From: Nitrospirae bacterium CG2_30_70_394
GTDB taxonomy: Bacteria; CG2-30-53-67; CG2-30-70-394
DNA length: 43,807 nt
NCBI GenBank assembly: GCA_001873295.1
Contig: MNYW01000092.1
Span: forward strand, 1-43,807
Reading direction: 5' to 3'
Shown: in pieces, positions 48 through 32,129 of the stretch
Layout of the letters: each line of letters starts with the position of its first letter
Position numbering within the stretch: the stretch's first letter is position 1
Program-made: the position numbers and the translations under genes
Notes under the pieces: generated by a model
What the model was told of the DNA's origin: nothing
The model's database searches: none
What the model saw: only the letters and a program-made list of their open reading frames with translations

Positions 48-343
48 CTCACTACCTCCTTGATTTCTTGTTCTGCCGGCGCATCCGGCGCCGCGCTGGA
101 GTCGTACGGTGCTGGGTCAGCATGGGCCGCGGCGGCGCGCGCGCCCCTCTCCCGGAACGGCGCGGGCGCCGTTGCCCCTGGCCCCTCCCCACCTGACCTC
201 GGTGGCTGGCCATGAAGCCCTTCGCGTGGGGATGGAGCGTGGGGGTAGGGGTGCTGCGGTGGGTGTCCATGCATGAAGCCCTTCGCGTGGGGATGGAGCC
301 CATGGTGGGAGCCATCCCCACTTCTTGAGTGATGTGACGCCAA
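44..343 (-). CDS. Possible small His/Pro-rich protein, translationally coupled to the edge gene
   Basis: This open frame ends in ATGA, so its stop overlaps the ATG of the edge gene and the AGGAGG of that gene lies inside it. The full frame needs a TTG start at 343, upstream of the predicted transcription start. An ATG at 274 preceded by GAAGGG is more plausible and gives 76 residues starting MHGHPPQHPYPHAP. The composition is rich in His and Pro early and Ala and Pro later, which could bind metal but could also be chance coding in GC-rich DNA. A 28 bp direct repeat sits in it in two different frames, which argues against a conserved protein. Treat as doubtful. Confidence 0.2.
   Translation of the reverse strand: MASHHSRSGDGSHHGLHPHAKGFMHGHPPQHPYPHAPSPREGLHGQPPRSGGEGPGATAPAPFRERGARAAAAHADPAPYDSSAAPDAPAEQEIKEVVR
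211..299. repeat. Pair of exact 28 bp direct repeats with 33 bp between them
   Basis: Copies are at 211-238 and 272-299 and begin CATGAAGCCCTTCGCG. They are identical, and the flanking bases differ at once on both sides. On the minus strand each copy ends in an ATG preceded by GAAGGG, so the duplication copies a possible translation start. The 61 bp period is the same as that of the pair at 28152-28240. Confidence 0.85.
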
Positions 344-352
344 GGGTGTGCC
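339..352 (-). promoter_or_regulatory. Sigma-54-like promoter for the edge gene
   Basis: Read on the minus strand the sequence is GGCACACCCTTGGC. It has GG and GC separated by exactly ten bases and a good -24 half (GGCAC). The -12 half is imperfect because TTGC is replaced by TGGC. Transcription would start near 327, running towards the gene at 47. The double palindrome at 479-523 lies 130-170 bp upstream, the normal place for an enhancer. Prediction from consensus only. Confidence 0.4.
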
Positions 353-478
353 GTAGAGCCTCTTTCTTGTTCTTTCAAGGGGTTATCCGCGTTGCTCCGC
401 TCCGGCAACGGGAAAAAGTGGAAAAGTCCGGAACACCTGAGCCCGCTGCCGAGAAAGAGCCCGTCTTTTCAACGGGTT

Positions 479-523
479 GCCCGTCTCAGATTGAGACTGG
501 CTCCGTCTCAATCTGAGACGGGC
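479..523. promoter_or_regulatory. Perfect 19 bp inverted repeat made of two GTCTCA-N3-TGAGAC palindromes
   Basis: The arms 479-497 and 505-523 are perfectly complementary with a 7 base loop. Each arm also contains its own palindrome, GTCTCAGATTGAGAC and GTCTCAATCTGAGAC. The palindrome centres are 22 bp apart, about two helical turns, which is how paired activator sites are usually placed. It could instead act as an RNA hairpin between divergent regions. The rest of the 344-712 gap between the edge gene region and murA shows nothing else I can name. Confidence 0.6.
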
Positions 524-712
524 TGAGGCGGGCCCGGGGCGCCGGGGGCGCACCTACGGGCCGTATCGTTCCACCACCCGTGCCTCGCCGGGGCGAGGAC
601 GGAGTCACCGAGGTCTCAGCGCGGGTCGCCGGTCGCGGGGGGTCACCGCGGGTGGGGCGTCTCTCAATCACAGGGCGCGCCCCCTGGACGGCGGCGCGGG
701 CGGGGCGGCGGC

Positions 713-8530: not shown

Positions 8531-8876
8531 GGTCGTCTGGCAACCACGGAAGGGTGCGCGACCGTAACGCCCCTCCGCCGCTTTCTTGCGCCCGCGATAG
8601 CGTGGCGAGCCACCTCGGTGCCGGACCACCCGGGTGGGGGGCGCCGGGGCGTCGTCGGCGGACCTCCGGGTACGGTCCAGCCGGGCAGGTGGCGGTTCAG
8701 ACCCGCGCGCCCGTTCGCTCCGCCCGCCGGCGTTGCCCCTTCCCCAGCGCGGACTGGGTGGCGGTCGGGATCGTGACTGAACTCCCCCGCGATCGAGCTC
8801 GGGCGGGCAGGCGGGGCGCGGCGTTATCACGTCGGGGTCGTGAACCGCTCTCCCCCGCAATCGCGCCGCGCCTACC
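8531..8876. other. Gene-free stretch between the MNT remnant and repeat R2
   Basis: About 350 bp of GC-rich sequence with no frame I can support on either strand and no clear promoter, hairpin or repeat. It may be further decayed remnant. Confidence 0.4.
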
Positions 8877-9044
8877 CTAGAAGCCTGTCGGACTTTGTCC
8901 CGATCTACTGCGCAGGAGCGGATCTCGCCCCGGATCGTGGCCGCTCTTCGTTTCAAGGCCCCACGCACCGGCTCGCACGGCTCTGCATCCGGGTTCGAGC
9001 CCGCTTGTCTGCGCCACGATCGACAAGGTCCGACAGGCTCCTAG
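8877..9044. repeat. Family A palindromic-ended repeat, copy R2, abutting the gltD stop codon
   Basis: The ends are CTAGAAGCCTGTCGGACTTT and, reverse complemented, CTAGGAGCCTGTCGGACCTT, nearly perfect inverted repeats of over 20 bp. The terminal CTAG on the right includes the TAG stop of gltD. Total length is 168 bp. It is the copy with the best-preserved ends. Confidence 0.9.
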
Positions 9045-10462
9045 CCGCGCAGGACGCGGTCGATGGCGGCGGCGGCCTGGCGGCCCTCGGCGATGGCCCA
9101 GACCACCAGCGACGCCCCGCGGTGCATGTCGCCGGCGGCGAAGACGGTCGGGATCGAGGTCTGGTACTGGTCGTTCACCTGCACGTTGCCGCGCGCGTCG
9201 AGCTTCATCCCGAGTGTTTCGATGAGCCCCGTGTGGACCGGGCGGAGGAATCCCATGGCCAGCAGGACCAGCTCCGTCTCGAGGGTGAACTCCGAGTCGG
9301 CGATCTCCACCATCTGGCGGCGGCCGTGGGCGTCTGGGTCGCTCCACGCGAGGCGGACGCCGTGCAGGTGGGTCACCCGTCCCGCCCTGCCGGTGAGCCG
9401 CTTGGTGGCGATGGACCACTCGCGCGCGCACCCCTCGGCGTGGGAGGTGGAGGTGCGCAAGACCATCGGCCAGTTGGGCCAGGTCCCGGGCTCCGGCTCC
9501 TGGGGTGGCTGCGGCAACAGCTCGAACTGGTGGACCGCGAGCGCCCCCTGGCGGTTGGCGGTGCCGACGCAGTCGCTGCCCGTGTCGCCGCCGCCGATCA
9601 CCACCACCCGCTTGCCGCGTGCGTCGATGCGCTCTGCCTCCGGGATGGAATCGCCGGCCACCACGCGGTTTTGTTGGATGAGGTAGTCGAGGGCGAAGTG
9701 GATCCCCTTGAGGTCGCGGCCCGGGACCTCCAAGTCGCGCGGCTGGCCGGCGCCACCGGCGAGCAGCACCGCGTCAAACTCGCTCACCAGCCGGTCCGCG
9801 GGGAGGTCGACGCCGACGTTGATGTTGGTGCGCAGCTCCACCCCCTCCGCCACCAGTTGGGCGATGCGCCGGTCGAGGAGTGGCTTCTCCAGCTTGAAGT
9901 CGGGGATGCCGTAGCGCAGGAGGCCGCCGATTCGGTCCGCCTTTTCAAACAGCACGGCGGTGTGGCCGGCGCGGGCCAGCTCTTGGGCGGCGGCGAGTCC
10001 CGCCGGCCCGGAGCCGACCACCGCAACCCTTTTTCCGCTCTGCACCGGCGCCGGCCGCGGCTCAATCCATCCCTCGCTGAAGCCGCGCTCGGCGATCACC
10101 TTCTCGATGTTGCGGATGGTGACCGGGGCGTGCTCCAGGTTGATCACGCACGACGCCTCACACGGTGCCGGGCAGATGCGGCCAGTGACCTCGGGCAGGT
10201 TGTTGGTGGCGTGCAGGCGGGCCACCGCCTCTTTCCAGCGGCCGCGGTAGACGAGGTCGTTCCACTCGGGGATCAGGTTATGGAGCGGGCAGCCGTGGTG
10301 GCAGAAGGGGATGCCACAGTCCATGCAGCGTGCCCCCTGCTCGCGCAGCTTCGCCTCCGAAAGGTCGAGGGTGAACTCGCGAAAGTTGGTGAGCCGCTCC
10401 GCGACCGGGGCGTAGGCGGGCAGCTCGCGGGGGAACTCCAAGAAGCCGGTGATCTTTCCCAT
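9041..10462 (-). CDS. gltD: Glutamate synthase, small (NADPH) subunit
   Basis: GltD takes electrons from NADPH through FAD and passes them by iron-sulfur clusters to GltB. The 473 residues show the N-terminal cluster cysteines [14 protein letters not shown] and CPAPCEASC. The FAD site is [19 protein letters not shown], the NADPH site [12 protein letters not shown] and the C-terminal FAD motif [18 protein letters not shown]. It starts at ATG 10462 ([10 protein letters not shown]), 99 bp after the gltB stop. Its stop codon lies inside the terminal CTAG of repeat R2. Confidence 0.97.
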
Positions 10463-25012: not shown

Positions 25013-25469
25013 CGGCGGCGCGGCCGGTGGCCCGTTGCGGGGAGCACGCCGGGCTCTCGACTGGCCCCAGGCGTGGGGTCGGCCGCGCTCCGCGGGCGTC
25101 TGGGAACTTGTCGGCCGGCCAATACCGCTGGCACCTTGGCGGGCGTGGCGCGCGGCCGAGCCGTCGGGCGGACGGGAGTCGATGGGGATCGCCCACGCGG
25201 TTGGATTGCGGGCGGTCGCACTGGGTAAAGCCAATGAACACCAACGGCTGCGAATCATGGACGGGGGAGGGCGCGGTCCACGCGGCTTGGGTTGGCGCTT
25301 GGTGCGGTAGACCATTCGCGTTCCTTCGCGTTGATGCGCGTCCATTCGCGGCCCGCTTTTGCGCGGGCCCAGCGATCTCATCCCGCACCACGCGCCCTTG
25401 CTTCGACGCACCATGGCGAACGCGACAGCCTTCTTACCCGCCCCGCGACTACCACCAGGAGACTCTCCG
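25013..25469. other. Intergenic region with family B repeat copy 1
   Basis: No supported gene in 457 bp. It holds the family B sequence at 25250-25351. The ribosome site AGGAGA of the next gene is at its right end. A TGGCAC at 25128 lacks a correctly spaced GC, so it was not called as a sigma-54 promoter. Confidence 0.5.
25250..25351 (+). repeat. Family B repeat, copy 1 (left flank of the peptidase/muramidase pair)
   Basis: The core 25250-25282 begins GCGAATCATGGACGGGGGAG and matches the core at 28132-28163 at about 29 of 33 positions, in direct orientation. It is followed at 25314-25351 by four TTCGCG/TGCGCG units about 10-11 bp apart. The same units occur in reverse orientation next to copy 2. 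Confidence 0.75.
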
Positions 25470-27428
25470 ATGAGCAGACCACGCCCTGATATGGAGGGGG
25501 ACGGTACGCGCCCCCCTCGCCATCCGGCACAGCTCCGGCTGGCTTCACCCCCCGTGGATGGCGAACTCTCGCCCACCCGTAGACCCTCCGGCGCGTCCCG
25601 CTCCAGAGGGTCTACGGGGGACCATCCCCTCACCGCCACCGCGGATCCGCCCGACAACCGCGACTGGCTCTACCGGCCGCCGCCGGTGCAGCTCAAGACC
25701 GTGATGGCCAAGCCGCGCGGGCTGAAGATCCTCGACCAGGGGACCGAGGGGGCGTGCACCGGCTTCGGCCTTGCCGCGGTGATCAACCTGCTGAATCAGC
25801 GGCGTGGTGCGGCAGTACGGGTGAGCCCGCGCATGCTCTACGAGATGGCGCGCAAGCACGACGAGTGGCCAGGCGAGGCGTACGCCGGCTCGTCATGTCG
25901 CGGGGCGATCAAGGGGTTCGCGCAGATGGGGGTGTGTCGCGACAGCTACTGGCCGTATCGGGACGATCGTCCCGGGGGGCTGACCGTGAAGGCGGCGCGG
26001 GATGCGCGCGCCAACACCATCGGCGCCTACTACCGCCTTGAACATCGGGTGAGCGACTTCCACGCCGCCCTCAACGAGGCCGGGGCGATCTTCTGCTCGG
26101 CCGACGTGCACGATGGCTGGGAGTCGCCGGCGGCGAAGAGTGGCGTCATCCCCCTGCGCTCGACGGTGACCGGTGGCCACGCCTTTGCGATCATCGGCTA
26201 CAACCGCGAGGGGTTTTGGGTGCAGAACTCGTGGGGTCGCACCTGGGGCCAAGGGGGGCTGGCCCTGTGGAGCTACGAGGACTGGCACGCGCACCTCACC
26301 GACGCCTGGGTTCTCAGCCTCGCGTTACCCACGCCACAGATCTGGTGTTTGGGCGAGGCGGAGCGCGCCTCCACGCGCGGTGGCGCCAGCAACACCGGGC
26401 GCGCACCGGCGCGCGGCCAGATCGCCGGCCACTTCATCCACATGGACGACGGCCAGTTCCACGACGCCGGTGACTACTGGAGCAACCTCGCGGACGTGCA
26501 GGCAACCGCGGCCAACCTGGCGGCCAGCACCAAATACGACCACCTGCTGATCTACGCCCACGGCGGCCTCAACAGCCCGAAGGACTCGGCGCGGCGGATC
26601 GCCGCCATGCGCGACGTGTTCAAGGACAATCGCGTCTATCCCCTGCACGTCATGTACGACACCGGGATTTTGGAGGAGATCAAGGACATCGTGGTGGCGC
26701 GCGGCGAGCAGACCGGGGCGCGGGCCGGCGGGGTGAGCGATTGGTGGGACCGGGTGCTGGAGCGGATGACGCGGCGGCTGGGGAGGGCGTTGTGGCGCGA
26801 GATGAAGCTCGGCGCGTGCCGGGGGTTCGAGCACAACAACGCGGGGGTCCAGACCCTGCGCACCTTTGCCCAAGCCCTGCGGGCGGGTGGTGGACTGAAG
26901 CTCAAGGTCCACCTCGCCGGCCATAGCACCGGCGGTATCCTGCTCGCCCACCTGCTCAACGCCCTGGAATCGATCGCCCCGCGCCTGCGCCTATCGACCG
27001 TCAGCCTGCTGGCCCCCGCCGCCTCGGTGGCGCTCTTCAAGAGCCACTACTACCCGCTGCTGGGGGCGACGCGAACGGCGTTCGGCATCGATCAGATGAC
27101 CGTCTACAACATCAGCGACGCGCTGGAGCAAGACGACACCGTCGGGCCGTACGGCAAGTCTCTCCTCTACCTGGTATCGCGCGCCTTTGAAGAGGAGACG
27201 CCCCTGCCGTTGCTCGGGATGCAGCGCTACGCCGAGCCCCTTGCGGCCGAGTGCAATGGCCGCGTCGAGTGGGTGGTCAGCCACGGGCGAGCGAAGCAGG
27301 AGGGGCGCAGCATGAGCACCACGCACGGCGGCTTCGACAACAACCCGGCGACCCTGAACGACATCCTGCGGCGGGTGGTCGGCAAGGAGCCAAAGCGGCT
27401 GTTCACCCCCAACGATCTGAACTACTGA
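25470..27428 (+). CDS. Papain-like cysteine peptidase fused to an alpha/beta hydrolase
   Basis: 652 residues from ATG 25470, with AGGAGA nine bases upstream. Residues 1-60 are Arg/Pro-rich without pattern. Residues 70-290 form a C1A papain fold: nucleophile Cys96 in QGTEGACTGFGLA, His237 in GGHAFAIIGYN and Asn253 in VQNSWGRTWGQGG. Residues about 350-600 form an alpha/beta hydrolase: YAHGGLNSPKDSA resembles the oxyanion region, and Ser486 is in GHSTGG, the nucleophile elbow. No signal peptide is seen. The next gene, a GH108 muramidase, follows by 11 bp. The combination suggests a multi-enzyme effector or lytic cassette; the substrate is unknown. The N-terminal 60 residues may be a wrong extension. 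Confidence 0.87.
   Translation: MSRPRPDMEGDGTRPPRHPAQLRLASPPVDGELSPTRRPSGASRSRGSTGDHPLTATADPPDNRDWLYRPPPVQLKTVMAKPRGLKILDQGTEGACTGFGLAAVINLLNQRRGAAVRVSPRMLYEMARKHDEWPGEAYAGSSCRGAIKGFAQMGVCRDSYWPYRDDRPGGLTVKAARDARANTIGAYYRLEHRVSDFHAALNEAGAIFCSADVHDGWESPAAKSGVIPLRSTVTGGHAFAIIGYNREGFWVQNSWGRTWGQGGLALWSYEDWHAHLTDAWVLSLALPTPQIWCLGEAERASTRGGASNTGRAPARGQIAGHFIHMDDGQFHDAGDYWSNLADVQATAANLAASTKYDHLLIYAHGGLNSPKDSARRIAAMRDVFKDNRVYPLHVMYDTGILEEIKDIVVARGEQTGARAGGVSDWWDRVLERMTRRLGRALWREMKLGACRGFEHNNAGVQTLRTFAQALRAGGGLKLKVHLAGHSTGGILLAHLLNALESIAPRLRLSTVSLLAPAASVALFKSHYYPLLGATRTAFGIDQMTVYNISDALEQDDTVGPYGKSLLYLVSRAFEEETPLPLLGMQRYAEPLAAECNGRVEWVVSHGRAKQEGRSMSTTHGGFDNNPATLNDILRRVVGKEPKRLFTPNDLNY
25576..25618. 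promoter_or_regulatory. Perfect 13 bp inverted repeat inside the early coding region
   Basis: CCCGTAGACCCTC (25576-25588) pairs perfectly with GAGGGTCTACGGG (25606-25618) across a 17 base loop. It falls about 35-50 codons after the predicted start of the peptidase-hydrolase gene, in the part without domain similarity. It may be an RNA hairpin in a leader, an operator or a small insertion. Confidence 0.6.
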
Positions 27429-27439
27429 GAGGTGGACCC

Positions 27440-28009
27440 ATGGCCGATTTTGCCGCTGCCCTCGCCCTCGTGCTGATCCACGAGGGGGGCTATGCGAACG
27501 ACCCGGACGATCGCGGCGGGGAGACCTACCGTGGCATCGCCCGCCGCTTCCATCCCGACTGGCCCGGCTGGTCGCGGGTGGACGCTCTTTCGCGGCGTCC
27601 CGGTTTCCCGCGTTCCCTGGAGACGGACCCGCGCCTAGCAGCGGCGGTGGCCGCGTTCTATCGCGACCTCTACTGGGATCAGTTCCAGGGCGACGCCCTG
27701 CCGGATCAACGACTCGCCGAAGAGCTGTTCGACACGGCGGTGAACCTCGGGGTCCGGCGCGCGGTGCGCTTTCTGCAGGAGGCGCTGAACCTGCTCAACC
27801 GCAATCAGCGCACCTACGCCGACTTGGTGGTGGACGGCTGGCTCGGGGAGAAGAGCCTCGCCGCCTTGGCGCTGGTGAGCGCGGCGGATGGCGACGCGCG
27901 CTTCGTGGTGAAGCTGATCAACGCCCTGCAGGCGGCGCACTACCTCGACGTGATGCGCCACGACCCGACCCAGGAGAAGTTCGCCCGCGGCTGGCTCTCC
28001 CGGACGTAG
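27440..28009 (+). CDS. GH108 family N-acetylmuramidase (lysozyme)
   Basis: 189 residues; ATG 27440 preceded by GAGAGGTGG. GH108 enzymes cleave the peptidoglycan glycan chain. The catalytic Glu is in LIHEGGYANDPDDRGGETYRG near the N-terminus. The rest matches the family: LYWDQFQGDALPDQ, ELFDTAVNLGVRRAVRFLQ and VDGWLGEKSLAAL (putative peptidoglycan-binding part). No signal peptide, so release would need a holin, lysis or a secretion system. It is co-transcribed with the peptidase-hydrolase. Homologues occur in prophages and secretion clusters; no other phage gene is seen here. Confidence 0.92.
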   Translation: MADFAAALALVLIHEGGYANDPDDRGGETYRGIARRFHPDWPGWSRVDALSRRPGFPRSLETDPRLAAAVAAFYRDLYWDQFQGDALPDQRLAEELFDTAVNLGVRRAVRFLQEALNLLNRNQRTYADLVVDGWLGEKSLAALALVSAADGDARFVVKLINALQAAHYLDVMRHDPTQEKFARGWLSRT

Positions 28010-28110
28010 GCGCCTTCCGGACTGGCAACACGGGGATCGGCGCCGAACGGCTGAGTTGGGGGCGACCCCCGGTGGGTGAAGGGCATTGGAAAATGGTTTT
28101 TGGATCTCGC

Positions 28111-28163
28111 CGCGAATCACTGCGAATGGGCGCGAATCCTGGAGGGGGAGGGTGCGGCCCACG
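28111..28163 (+). repeat. Family B repeat, copy 2 (right flank of the peptidase/muramidase pair)
   Basis: The core 28132-28163 begins GCGAATCCTGGAGGGGGAGG and is a direct repeat of 25250-25282. It is preceded by three GCGAAT units (28111-28139), the reverse complement of the TTCGCG units beside copy 1. The two copies bracket about 2.9 kb holding exactly the two-gene cassette. Confidence 0.75.
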
Positions 28164-28240
28164 TGCGCGGCGGGCGCTGCGCCGCCGGCAAGCGCCAGCG
28201 GTGCCTCGTGCAGTGCGGCCCACGTGCGCGGCGGGCGCTG
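28152..28240. repeat. Pair of exact 28 bp direct repeats with 33 bp between them
   Basis: Copies at 28152-28179 and 28213-28240 begin GTGCGGCCCACGTGCGCGG. They are identical with unlike flanks. Repeat length and spacing equal those of the pair at 211-299. The first copy overlaps the end of family B copy 2. No cas gene is in the window. Confidence 0.85.
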
Positions 28241-28451: not shown

Positions 28452-30668
28452 CTACGGCGCGGCGGGGGGCGGGGTCACCGACGTGGGTGGGGTGGGGCTG
28501 GCGTGGTGGGCAGCCGGGGCGTGGTCGCCGAGGAGGTGGGTGCTGGTGAGCTGGTCGAGGGGCAGCCAGGGATCGAGACGGCCGGCGTACCACAGCCCGC
28601 CCAAAACCAGCACGGCCACGACGAAGAGATAGCTCTTCCACGGTCGCCGCTTGTCTGCGAACGGGTCCGCCAGGGAGCGCTCGGCGCCGGCGGGCAGCTT
28701 GGCAACGCCGGTGAGGGCGGCGCCAAACGGGACATTCAAGCGCGCCTTGGTGTTGATCGCCCAACCGTTCGCATCGAGGATCGGACCGAGGTTGCGCCGG
28801 CGCAGCTTCAGCCAGGCAAGGAGCATGGAGGGGCCCGAGATCGCCAGCCAGACGGCGGCGATGACCACCGGGTATTGCCACACCGCCAGCTCCATCAGCC
28901 CGGTGGCGACGCTCGCGATCGCCGTGCCGATCGCGCCCACCGCAACCCCCAGGGCGGCGACCGTGCCGACGTCGATCTTCTTCGCCTTGGCCGCCTCGGG
29001 CGCCGCCTTGTCCGCCGCACCCACCGTCGTGGCGACCTGGGTCATCTTGCTGATGGAGGGGGCCTCGGCCGCGGCGGCGCGCTTGCTGACCTGCTCCTCG
29101 ATCATCCGCACCAGCTTCTTGTAGGGCAGCCAGAACGCCTCGCGCAGGCCGATCGGGTTGGCGACGATCCGGGTGATGGTCGCGTCCCAGTCGCAACCTT
29201 GGCGGTCGTAGAAGACGCCATTGCGGCCCACCATCAGGTTGTCCGAGTCGCCGTCGGTGAACACCGCGACGATCGACCGCTTCTGCCCGCCGGGGCGGGA
29301 GAGGTCGCAGTAGGCGAGGTAGGCGCCGGCGAGGCCGGCAAGGGTCGCGTGCTTGGCGGCGTCGGCCACCTCGATGCACAGGGTGCAGCCACGCGCGTCG
29401 AGATACAGGGTCCCGGCCTGAAAGACGGCCCCGCGGCGGCCATAGAAGTCGGCGAAGTTCACGTAGTTCGCCAGCACCTTCCCCAGGTCGCGCTGGAAGC
29501 GCACCAACTTCTCTACCGCCGCAATCTGCGCGTACTCCGGCGCCAGGGCGGCGTCTTGCTGGATCAGGGCGGTGATGGCGTCACGGGCTGGACCGGCGAG
29601 CAACTCGTGAAGGCGCGCCGTACCGAGCTGCGCCACCGCGCTGGCCGGCTTGGCCGCCTGCCACGCCACGAAGGGGGCGAGCTTCGCCTGCACCGCCGAC
29701 CAGTCCGCCTCGCTCAGGGCGTCGCGTTCGCCCAACAGGGGGGCGATCGCCTGGCTGGCAAGGGTCGCGATGGCTCCCGTCCACGCCGGATTGAGGCCAT
29801 CGGTTAGGGGCAGGGGCGCGTCCGGCACGATCTTGGCCAGGACCAGGGTGGCGATCTCCGCGCTGGCAAGGGTCAGCTCCTTGGCCGCCAGGGCGAGGTA
29901 GTCCTTCTCCGAGAGATTGAGGGCGGCGGTCGCCCGGCCATCGAAGGTAGCCAGGCGAAGCCGCGCGAAGTAATCGTCCACCTTCCCCCGCACCGCTTCG
30001 ACCGCCGCTGCCGCCGCCGCGGTCGCCTCCTCCCCGAGGGGGGCGAGCCCCGGGTCCGCCGCCCGCGCCGCCCAGGCGCAATGGGCCGCGGCCTGGGTGA
30101 AGAAGGCGTCAAGCGTCACCTGATCCACCCCCACCTTGCCGCTCCGGTCGGGCTGCCCGCCGAGGGTGGCGATGATCTCCGTGATCGCTTGGCGCGTCGC
30201 CGGGTCGTCCGCGGATTCGGGCACGACGACCCCGTCGCCGTTGAACTGGGTGGTGGCGAAGATCGTGGCCGTGTCCGCCACGTCCGCCAGGGTGATGGCA
30301 GAGGCGTCCCCCTTGCCCAGCTCCGCCAGGACGCGCCTTGCCGCGGCCAGAATCCCCGGCTCTTGGATCGCAGCCAGGGCCACGCCATCGCCGCCACGCA
30401 ACACGTCACCCACGTCCCGCAAGGCGCCGGCCACCCACTGGACCGCGGCGATGAGCTCTGGCGGGCGGATCCGGCCGTCGTGGTCCGTGTCGATCAGGTC
30501 CGCGGTCTTGGGGTCGAGCTCGATGCCACGACTGGGCATGGCCAGGGCGACCCACAGCTTGGGGTCGAGCTCGCCAAGGTGGGCGAGGTCGGCGCCGTCG
30601 CGGAACATGACCTGATCGACCCCGCCGGCACGAAAGAACTTCCAACGATGGGGTGCTGGGGTCTCCAT
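28452..30668 (-). CDS. Large EF-hand membrane protein, function unknown
   Basis: 738 residues from ATG 30668 (METPAPHRWKFF), with GGAGGAG eight bases upstream; the track's start is about 180 codons too early. A canonical EF-hand loop DTDHDGRIRPPE is at residues 60-71, with Ca ligands at 60, 62, 64 and 71. A weaker loop (FNGDGVVVPES) follows near 145. The middle is a long Ala-rich helical region. The last 200 residues hold hydrophobic segments (VGTVAALGVAVGAIGTAIAS, YPVVIAAVWLAISGPSMLL and SYLFVVAVLVLGGLWYAG) and end in a Pro/His/Thr-rich tail. The N-terminus seems to face the cytoplasm. I know similar EF-hand proteins only as uncharacterised. It is divergent from the SET-like gene. Confidence 0.82.
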   Translation of the reverse strand: METPAPHRWKFFRAGGVDQVMFRDGADLAHLGELDPKLWVALAMPSRGIELDPKTADLIDTDHDGRIRPPELIAAVQWVAGALRDVGDVLRGGDGVALAAIQEPGILAAARRVLAELGKGDASAITLADVADTATIFATTQFNGDGVVVPESADDPATRQAITEIIATLGGQPDRSGKVGVDQVTLDAFFTQAAAHCAWAARAADPGLAPLGEEATAAAAAAVEAVRGKVDDYFARLRLATFDGRATAALNLSEKDYLALAAKELTLASAEIATLVLAKIVPDAPLPLTDGLNPAWTGAIATLASQAIAPLLGERDALSEADWSAVQAKLAPFVAWQAAKPASAVAQLGTARLHELLAGPARDAITALIQQDAALAPEYAQIAAVEKLVRFQRDLGKVLANYVNFADFYGRRGAVFQAGTLYLDARGCTLCIEVADAAKHATLAGLAGAYLAYCDLSRPGGQKRSIVAVFTDGDSDNLMVGRNGVFYDRQGCDWDATITRIVANPIGLREAFWLPYKKLVRMIEEQVSKRAAAAEAPSISKMTQVATTVGAADKAAPEAAKAKKIDVGTVAALGVAVGAIGTAIASVATGLMELAVWQYPVVIAAVWLAISGPSMLLAWLKLRRRNLGPILDANGWAINTKARLNVPFGAALTGVAKLPAGAERSLADPFADKRRPWKSYLFVVAVLVLGGLWYAGRLDPWLPLDQLTSTHLLGDHAPAAHHASPTPPTSVTPPPAAP

Positions 30669-30941
30669 CCCGATTCTCCTCCTGCGAAGTCCCCACCACA
30701 GGGAGTGGCACCCATTATTCCGAATGGGGTGGAAAGTTCCACACGATACCAGCATCGTGCCATAGCGCTCCCGCACCGCCGCGCCCACGGCGACGACGGT
30801 TGCCCGCGCACCACGTCCGCCACCGTGCCGCGGGCGGCGGGATGGCGCATGGCGGCGATTCTGTCGCCGTGGTTTCGTTGCACTGGGTGAGCCACACTGG
30901 CCCGGCCAGCGAGGGGAGCCACCCTCCCCACATTCCTGCCC

Positions 30942-32129
30942 ATGGTTGCGATCGATAGTGATTCCGCGCCCGTAGCTACGGCGATCGCGGACCTCCTCGC
31001 CGTGGTTGAACGCCATGGTGGCCGGTTCGATGACCGACTGCGGATCCGCAGTCGCGGAGGCGAGCTCAGCGTCCACATCCAGGTGGAGGGGACGATGGGC
31101 GCACCCGCCCCTAGGATCATCCAGCTCCCCCCCGCGTGTTTGCTGCCCGTGGAGGCCTTTCACCTCACCGTCGCCGGGGACGACATCGTGGTTGTGGACC
31201 ACGATCCCGACCTATCCCCGGCCCGCCAAGGGATCATGCAGGCGGTCGTGGAGGTGTGGAATCTCACCCGCAAGATCCCCCACCACCGCTTCTCGAACCC
31301 CGCCTGGCTTCAGCACGTATCCCCCGCGCTCTATCGCCGGCTGAGCGCAGGACGCCACCCGCCGGCCACCCCCGCCCCGTCGCGCAACGATCCCCTGGTC
31401 GACAACCTGCTCGACACCCGCACCCTCGTCTATCGCCTCGACCCCACCTCCGACCGCCACACCCAGGTGATCATGCCGGTGATTGATTTCCTCAACCACC
31501 ATCCATTCGCGGCGCCATACCTGAGCGAGGCGGACGGGCCACACAACCACGTCCTTGCCGTCCAGGAGTTCTGCCCAGATCCCCAGAGCTGCGAGTGCTA
31601 CGCGCGGTACGGGATCTACGACGGCTACGACACCTTCCTGCACTACGGCTTCGTCGCCCGCGAGACCCCCTTCGTGATCTCGATTCCGCTGCACCTGGAC
31701 CTGCCCCCCCTGGGCAAGCTGACGGTCCACGCCTACAGCGGCCGGGCCCCGGACCAACAACTACCCAAGGCGATCGCGGACCTGGCCTTCTACCTCCCCG
31801 CCTTCACCGTCGACCGGGCGCACCACTCGGCGGAGGTTGGCTATCTGATGATCCCGCAGGGCAACGCCCCGCGCGCCCTACGGCGGGTCTTGGCGGTGAT
31901 CCTCCACGCGATCGAGCCGCGCCTCAACGACGCGAAAATCGCCACCATCGTCGAGGCCATCGAACCTGAAATCCTCGCGCGCAATGTCGAGTTCTACCAA
32001 GACCTCCGGCGCGACCTGGAGGAATACGCCGTCCCGCCGGGGTTTCGTTCGGTCGTCGACGGAGCGCGCGCGATGGCAGACCTCCAGCTTGAGAAACTAC
32101 GGCGCTACCCCTTCTTTGCAGCCCGGTAA
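30942..32129 (+). CDS. SET-domain-like protein (Rubisco LSMT type)
   Basis: 395 residues. MPVIDFLNHHPFA at 178-190 resembles the DxxNH motif of SET lysine methyltransferases of the Rubisco LSMT group. CYARYGIYDGYDTFLHYGFV at 219-238 resembles the following Y-G...YGF block. The C-terminal third (LRRVLAVILHAIEPRLND) could be the helical substrate-binding domain. The N-terminal 150 residues show no clear SET start, so the family is a tentative call. If active it would methylate a protein lysine using SAM. It is divergent from the EF-hand gene and precedes the TPM genes by about 190 bp. Confidence 0.6.
   Translation: MVAIDSDSAPVATAIADLLAVVERHGGRFDDRLRIRSRGGELSVHIQVEGTMGAPAPRIIQLPPACLLPVEAFHLTVAGDDIVVVDHDPDLSPARQGIMQAVVEVWNLTRKIPHHRFSNPAWLQHVSPALYRRLSAGRHPPATPAPSRNDPLVDNLLDTRTLVYRLDPTSDRHTQVIMPVIDFLNHHPFAAPYLSEADGPHNHVLAVQEFCPDPQSCECYARYGIYDGYDTFLHYGFVARETPFVISIPLHLDLPPLGKLTVHAYSGRAPDQQLPKAIADLAFYLPAFTVDRAHHSAEVGYLMIPQGNAPRALRRVLAVILHAIEPRLNDAKIATIVEAIEPEILARNVEFYQDLRRDLEEYAVPPGFRSVVDGARAMADLQLEKLRRYPFFAAR

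Follow-up and report, generated by a model that had tools for sequence, protein, structure and literature searches.

A peptidase-hydrolase and a GH108 muramidase encoded side by side in a Nitrospirae bacterium: recurrent linkage to wall hydrolases and a possible role in cell lysis

Muramidases, lipases and papain-like proteases are all known as effectors that form the cargo of bacterial delivery machines. Enzymes of these kinds also occur in other settings. Xylellain, from Xylella fastidiosa, is a single-domain C1A papain with an N-terminal segment of the DIRD/DNRDW type whose structure has been solved (3ois). The GH108 proteins TtsA and Sen1395 (6v40 and 6v3z) are associated with typhoid toxin release: TtsA carries the toxin across peptidoglycan (PMC6996933) and the islet that encodes typhoid toxin is reported to include a phospholipase A2 as well (PMC11525133). 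Finally, NTP-dependent conflict systems include pairs of caspase and alpha/beta-hydrolase as well as EAD1-linked lysozyme and papain-like wall peptidases (PMC7159879).

Here we describe two adjoining genes on a 43,807-nucleotide stretch of DNA (the window) that constitutes contig C15 of the 2.65-Mb, 94% complete draft genome of Nitrospirae bacterium CG2_30_70_394. The features discussed are collected in Table 1. The class to which the host belongs is thinly sampled, being represented by a single congener and, from another family of that class, by six genomes; the remaining genomes share only the domain.

Table 1. Features of the gene pair and its repeats, in window coordinates
Feature	Position	Strand	Details
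Family B repeat, left copy	25250..25282	+	GCGAATCATGGACGGGGGAGGGCGCGGTCCACG, 33 bp
Peptidase-hydrolase gene (gene 1), 652 aa	25470..27428	+	AGGAG well placed before ATG at 25470
Dispersed ~140-bp four-hairpin repeat	25480..25618	+	inside peptidase-hydrolase N-terminus, read in frame
Papain domain, xylellain type	25722..26315, residues ~85-282	+	profile match to 3ois, E 1.1e-20
Alpha/beta-hydrolase domain	26406..27392, residues ~313-641	+	HGG 364-366, GHSTG around S486, H619
GH108 muramidase gene (gene 2), 189 aa	27440..28009	+	11 bases past peptidase-hydrolase stop
Family B repeat, right copy	28132..28163	+	GCGAATCCTGGA-GGGGGAGGGTGCGGCCCACG, 32 bp, one gap

The two proteins of the pair

A sequence-only reading of the window had proposed a fusion of papain-like and lipase-like domains followed by a GH108 enzyme, neither protein carrying a signal peptide. 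The papain and GH108 domains, an alpha/beta-hydrolase half and the leaderlessness are confirmed here: no hydrophobic leader is present in either protein, the highest 19-residue mean hydropathy lying below 1.3. The open frame that starts at 25359 matches PF00112 above cut-off (Pfam, E 7.7e-10), the closest solved structure to the papain domain is xylellain 3ois (Foldseek rank 1), and Q90, C96, H237 and N253 are invariant in an alignment of 10 sequences, identifying the domain, by homology and by its Gln/Cys/His/Asn set, as a C1A papain of the xylellain type. The first structure model of the protein (pLDDT 52.7 overall) is poor over this half, so the papain assignment rests mainly on sequence. 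The C-terminal half of the window protein has no Pfam match but resembles esterases and lipases in fold, with Z up to 11.5, and its own domain model, which is of moderate quality (pLDDT 72.4, pTM 0.79), gives fold matches of this kind too. Fold, a conserved GHSTG nucleophile elbow and conserved H619 together place this half in the alpha/beta-hydrolase superfamily, with either E553 or D556 as the catalytic acid. It may be lipase-like, the modelled fold suiting esterases, lipases and other hydrolases alike.

Homologues of the peptidase-hydrolase are ~610 amino acids long and are 64-69% identical to it in Gammaproteobacteria and 49-52% in other lineages. Alignment with them reveals that the window protein is ~41 residues longer at its N-terminus, and most of these extra residues are supplied by the ~140-bp repeat, which is similar in kind to the palindromic elements found inside Rickettsia genes. 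The repeat is specific to the genus, with eight copies in the host, nine in the congener and none in seven other genomes tested. As a single strand it folds into four hairpins (z -4.84), and 14 predicted pairs display two-sided, pair-keeping changes in at least one of seven copies, the overall covariation term being unfavourable. No Rfam family matches at the locus and a structured RNA was rejected. Either the repeat entered the gene in frame once the gene had been acquired, or it lies at the left junction of the acquired DNA. Elsewhere in the window, a ~175-bp stretch at 8869-9048 has many matches in the congener's genome and resembles a further family of dispersed repeats.

The second protein contains PF05838 (E 3.8e-23) and PF09374 (PG_binding_3, E 1.2e-12), both above cut-off, and falls in the endolysin family phrog_315. 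Its nearest solved structures are TtsA (6v40, E 6.2e-20) and Sen1395, and the catalytic glutamate of the EGGY motif, E15, is invariant in three aligned proteins. PF05838, this glutamate and the PG_binding_3 domain that usually accompanies them identify the protein as a GH108 muramidase.

Wall hydrolases linked to relatives, and what the pair may do

At the window and at four further loci (L030, L035, G428 and G193) a GH108 gene lies directly downstream of the peptidase-hydrolase gene; in G081 it does so in broken form. G079 (L118/L150, G079:C31) has a single 905-aa frame in which an N-acetylmuramidase (PF11860, E 2.6e-61) is joined to the papain and alpha/beta-hydrolase domains. Other relatives have other partners. 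An Amidase_2 protein is encoded upstream in R. etli, a CHAP protein upstream in S. meliloti and Rhizobium CC1099, a GH19 enzyme immediately upstream in S. chiapasense and a putative GH19, recognised by position and nearly identical first residues, upstream in S. terangae, whilst S. fredii has a divergent PG_binding_1 protein as partner. Within one rhizobial clade CHAP and GH19 swap at the same position. Most of the partners match phage lysis families, chiefly endolysins in PHROGs, where the CHAP proteins are tail lysozymes, and every protein tested, whether from the unit or among its partners, is leaderless. The linkages fall in at least four places on the peptidase-hydrolase tree and involve ~13 of 38 loci, a raw count for which neighbours were scanned at part of the remaining loci.

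As judged from these trees and neighbourhoods, members of the peptidase-hydrolase family have on several occasions acquired a phage-type wall hydrolase, of differing kinds, either next door or fused to them. That a fusion exists, and that unrelated enzymes sharing one target have taken the partner's place again and again, is strong evidence that the protease-hydrolase functions in concert with a wall hydrolase. The partner is evidently not obligatory, since Sedimenticola has kept the protease-hydrolase with no adjacent GH108 and many other relatives have no recognised wall hydrolase next door. Among the papers searched, few of them from subscription journals, we found none describing an association of protease-hydrolase and lysin. 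These linkages offer a concrete functional lead for a peptidase of family C1 to which databases assign no role.

Our leading reading, still a tentative one, is that the pair forms a lysis module which works from the cytosol on the envelope of the cell that makes it. The unit would make three leaderless hydrolases, namely a papain-like protease, an esterase/lipase-like alpha/beta-hydrolase carried on the same chain, and a GH108 muramidase of phage type. On receipt of a trigger the protease would become active, the alpha/beta-hydrolase would damage membrane lipid and in doing so perform the job of a holin, and the wall hydrolase could then reach and cut peptidoglycan; the cell would lyse, either as a suicide response to phage or another invader or to release its contents. 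Membrane breaching by the alpha/beta-hydrolase is a guess, its fold fitting many esterases, and the trigger and target cell are inferred. We favour lysis because the proteins tested are leaderless, no holin is seen in the operon and the host lacks a contractile delivery machine; conservation of the catalytic residues of both proteins also counts for it, as do the joint transfer of the two genes, the recurrent linkage to wall hydrolases, the sporadic distribution and the caspase genes near rhizobial relatives. No sensor, regulator or immunity gene conserved beside the pair was recognised, which counts against this reading, as do the relatives with no recognised wall hydrolase next door and the missing PADLOC match. 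It is possible, if rather less than probable, that we are dealing with a system for lysis or killing that has not been described before, where a protein uniting papain and alpha/beta-hydrolase acts with an interchangeable phage-derived wall hydrolase, the alpha/beta-hydrolase replacing the holin and the partner (GH108, N-acetylmuramidase, amidase, GH19 or CHAP) having been replaced several times. If members of the family make use of any phage lysin available to them, they could represent a widespread killing module or a general means of bacterial self-lysis that needs no holin.

The main rivals to lysis that remain are delivery into other bacteria and muramidase-assisted export. In the first of these, the pair would encode an antibacterial effector set, injected by a machine into rivals to attack protein, lipid and peptidoglycan. 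Three complementary and leaderless degradative activities would suit this, as would the familiar delivery-machine cargo and the muramidase fusion in G079, but neither VipB nor Phage_sheath_1 was found in the 94% complete host draft, in which positive controls were found, and no cognate immunity gene was recognised beside the pair. With both sheath proteins missing, contractile delivery in this host is unlikely, a T6SS or other contractile-system effector was rejected, and we consider the effector explanation unlikely. The sequence-only reading had envisaged a combined attack on protein, lipid and peptidoglycan, and had proposed looking for a secretion system and an immunity gene: the fused and adjoining wall hydrolases of relatives lend support to the combined action, whereas the contractile type of machine and a conserved immunity candidate both failed to appear.

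A second alternative does away with killing altogether. Here the proteins would be cytosolic quality-control or scavenging enzymes, with the neighbouring wall hydrolase recycling wall fragments or persisting as a domesticated phage relic. The sporadic, solitary copies in many genomes and the absence of a toxin-antitoxin layout fit this well enough, but relics would hardly account for wall hydrolases of five kinds, one of them fused, being linked to the family in separate lineages, and we think scavenging improbable as well.

In the export alternative, events would resemble typhoid toxin release: the GH108 enzyme would open the wall and the protease-hydrolase would leave the cell and digest external material. 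That TtsA and Sen1395 are the closest solved structures to the GH108 protein, that TtsA passes toxin across peptidoglycan (PMC6996933) and that a phospholipase A2 is placed in the typhoid toxin islet (PMC11525133) are consistent with it. Against this, the operon has no visible holin, which in a type 10 secretion system would accompany the endolysin and the exported cargo, the Sedimenticola protein manages with no GH108 beside it and the partner varies among five enzyme types. We rate export as quite improbable.

Acquisition of the pair and its flanking repeats

Gene 1 has its best relatives in Gammaproteobacteria (66-70%; Sedimenticola, Mangrovimicrobium, Porticoccaceae and a Chromatiales MAG), and in the tree the window peptidase-hydrolase falls within a clade from that class (support 100/99), the host itself lying outside the class. 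The family is spread sporadically, occurring in 17 of 369 sampled genomes of the class. GH108 proteins linked to a peptidase all group together (80/87), that of the window falling in a 94/92 subgroup, and in three host genomes tested the copy adjoining the peptidase is the sole full-length GH108. The pair is absent from the congener, where the N-terminal repeat is the only part of gene 1 that finds matches. Indeed, the congener has almost no DNA match to the whole of ~17-32 kb other than repeats and a common sigma-54 regulator gene, whilst the stretches on either side are conserved, so the variable region is far larger than a cassette of two genes. Tree nesting, the GH108 grouping and the congener gap indicate that the two genes were acquired together, within or along with this larger region. 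They show that the pair was acquired horizontally as a unit whose source was a gammaproteobacterial lineage, two genes crossing phyla as one. The two are not syntenic core genes; core status was an outcome the sequence-only reading had named as counting against it.

Contamination was rejected as the source of the pair, the contig carrying genus repeats and flanks syntenic with the congener. A prophage remnant was likewise rejected: no relative of the peptidase-hydrolase was found in IMG/VR contigs, phage records give partial papain matches only, and phage GH108 proteins lie outside the linked group, with modest support. Downstream, on the minus strand at 28452-31202, lies a convergent gene that has no match in Pfam; its product contains a stretch resembling an EF-hand and, towards the C-terminus, hydrophobic segments. 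The gene was considered as a third part of the unit and dismissed, since neither the congener nor any other relative searched has it.

The pair is flanked by two copies of a repeat designated family B. As the earlier reading had claimed, they lie in direct orientation, both on the plus strand, on either side of exactly two genes, and are alike at 29 of 33 positions with one gap. Allowing up to three mismatches, a 22-base core matches at two places in the window, where shuffled sequence would give 0.03, so that within the window the recurrence is beyond chance. Genome-wide, however, the pattern occurs in 13 copies (up to three mismatches, both strands, 2.65 Mb), a reversed control pattern giving none in the same search, and longer segments from the two flanks recur at dozens of sites elsewhere. 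Spread of family B through the genome is among the outcomes that the sequence-only reading had named as refuting it. Chance alone would yield ~0.17 pairs within 2.9 kb from 13 copies and ~1 from ~30 looser copies; with so many copies in the genome, finding two 2.9 kb apart is not surprising. There is no recombinase between the copies, and an empty site with a single family B copy was not found in the sole congener. The family B flanks are a native repeat and do not mark the termini of a mobile unit. The right-hand repeat block also contains a perfect 28-base direct repeat (28152-28179 and 28213-28240, 61 bases apart).

A mobile cassette bounded and moved by family B repeats, as first proposed from their position around a pair that was indeed acquired horizontally, is therefore very improbable and largely refuted: the copies are genome-wide, a chance pair at such spacing is not rare, no recombinase lies inside, further native repeats also fill both flanks and the gap relative to the congener far exceeds the size of the cassette.

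Comparison with known systems

Neither of the two proteins, nor any neighbour scanned, matched a PADLOC model, and a known anti-phage defence system was rejected on that basis. The holin-associated N-acetylmuramidases of NF040573 and the phage GH108 endolysins of phrog_315 belong to the same family as gene 2, but the window protein scores 41.8 against the NF040573 cut-off of 240 and, unlike the endolysins, has no phage genes recognised beside it. Xylellain shares with gene 1 the papain domain, the Q/C/H/N set and the N-terminal segment, to which the window protein adds a C-terminal alpha/beta-hydrolase and a muramidase neighbour. TtsA and Sen1395 likewise combine GH108 with PG_binding_3 and are leaderless, but the partner gene at the window encodes a protease-hydrolase rather than a toxin, in an operon with no holin.

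Among rhizobia, a gene encoding caspase and GDSL-lipase domains often adjoins or lies near the peptidase-hydrolase relative. Examples beside or near such relatives include L165:5889-7838 and L039:189-2096, caspase-domain proteins with a GDSL-lipase domain, and L162:6927-8843, annotated as caspase family. The relatives in Paracoccus and Roseivivax carry a trypsin domain fused ahead of the papain; two longer relatives with an N-terminal trypsin-like domain (L168:3011-5611 and L169:2921-5794) each lie beside a ~7 kb gene. The rhizobial loci can be likened to the caspase/hydrolase pairs of the NTP-dependent conflict systems (PMC7159879), although the rhizobial caspase neighbour scores far below the cut-off of the EACC1-type model NF047832 (22.9 against 140). 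No caspase was recognised among the window genes scanned, nor any NTPase or EACC1/EAD1 part beside the pair. Like those systems (PMC7159879), the window pair brings together a peptidase, an alpha/beta-hydrolase and a wall-attacking enzyme, and it differs from them in carrying the papain and alpha/beta-hydrolase domains in one chain.
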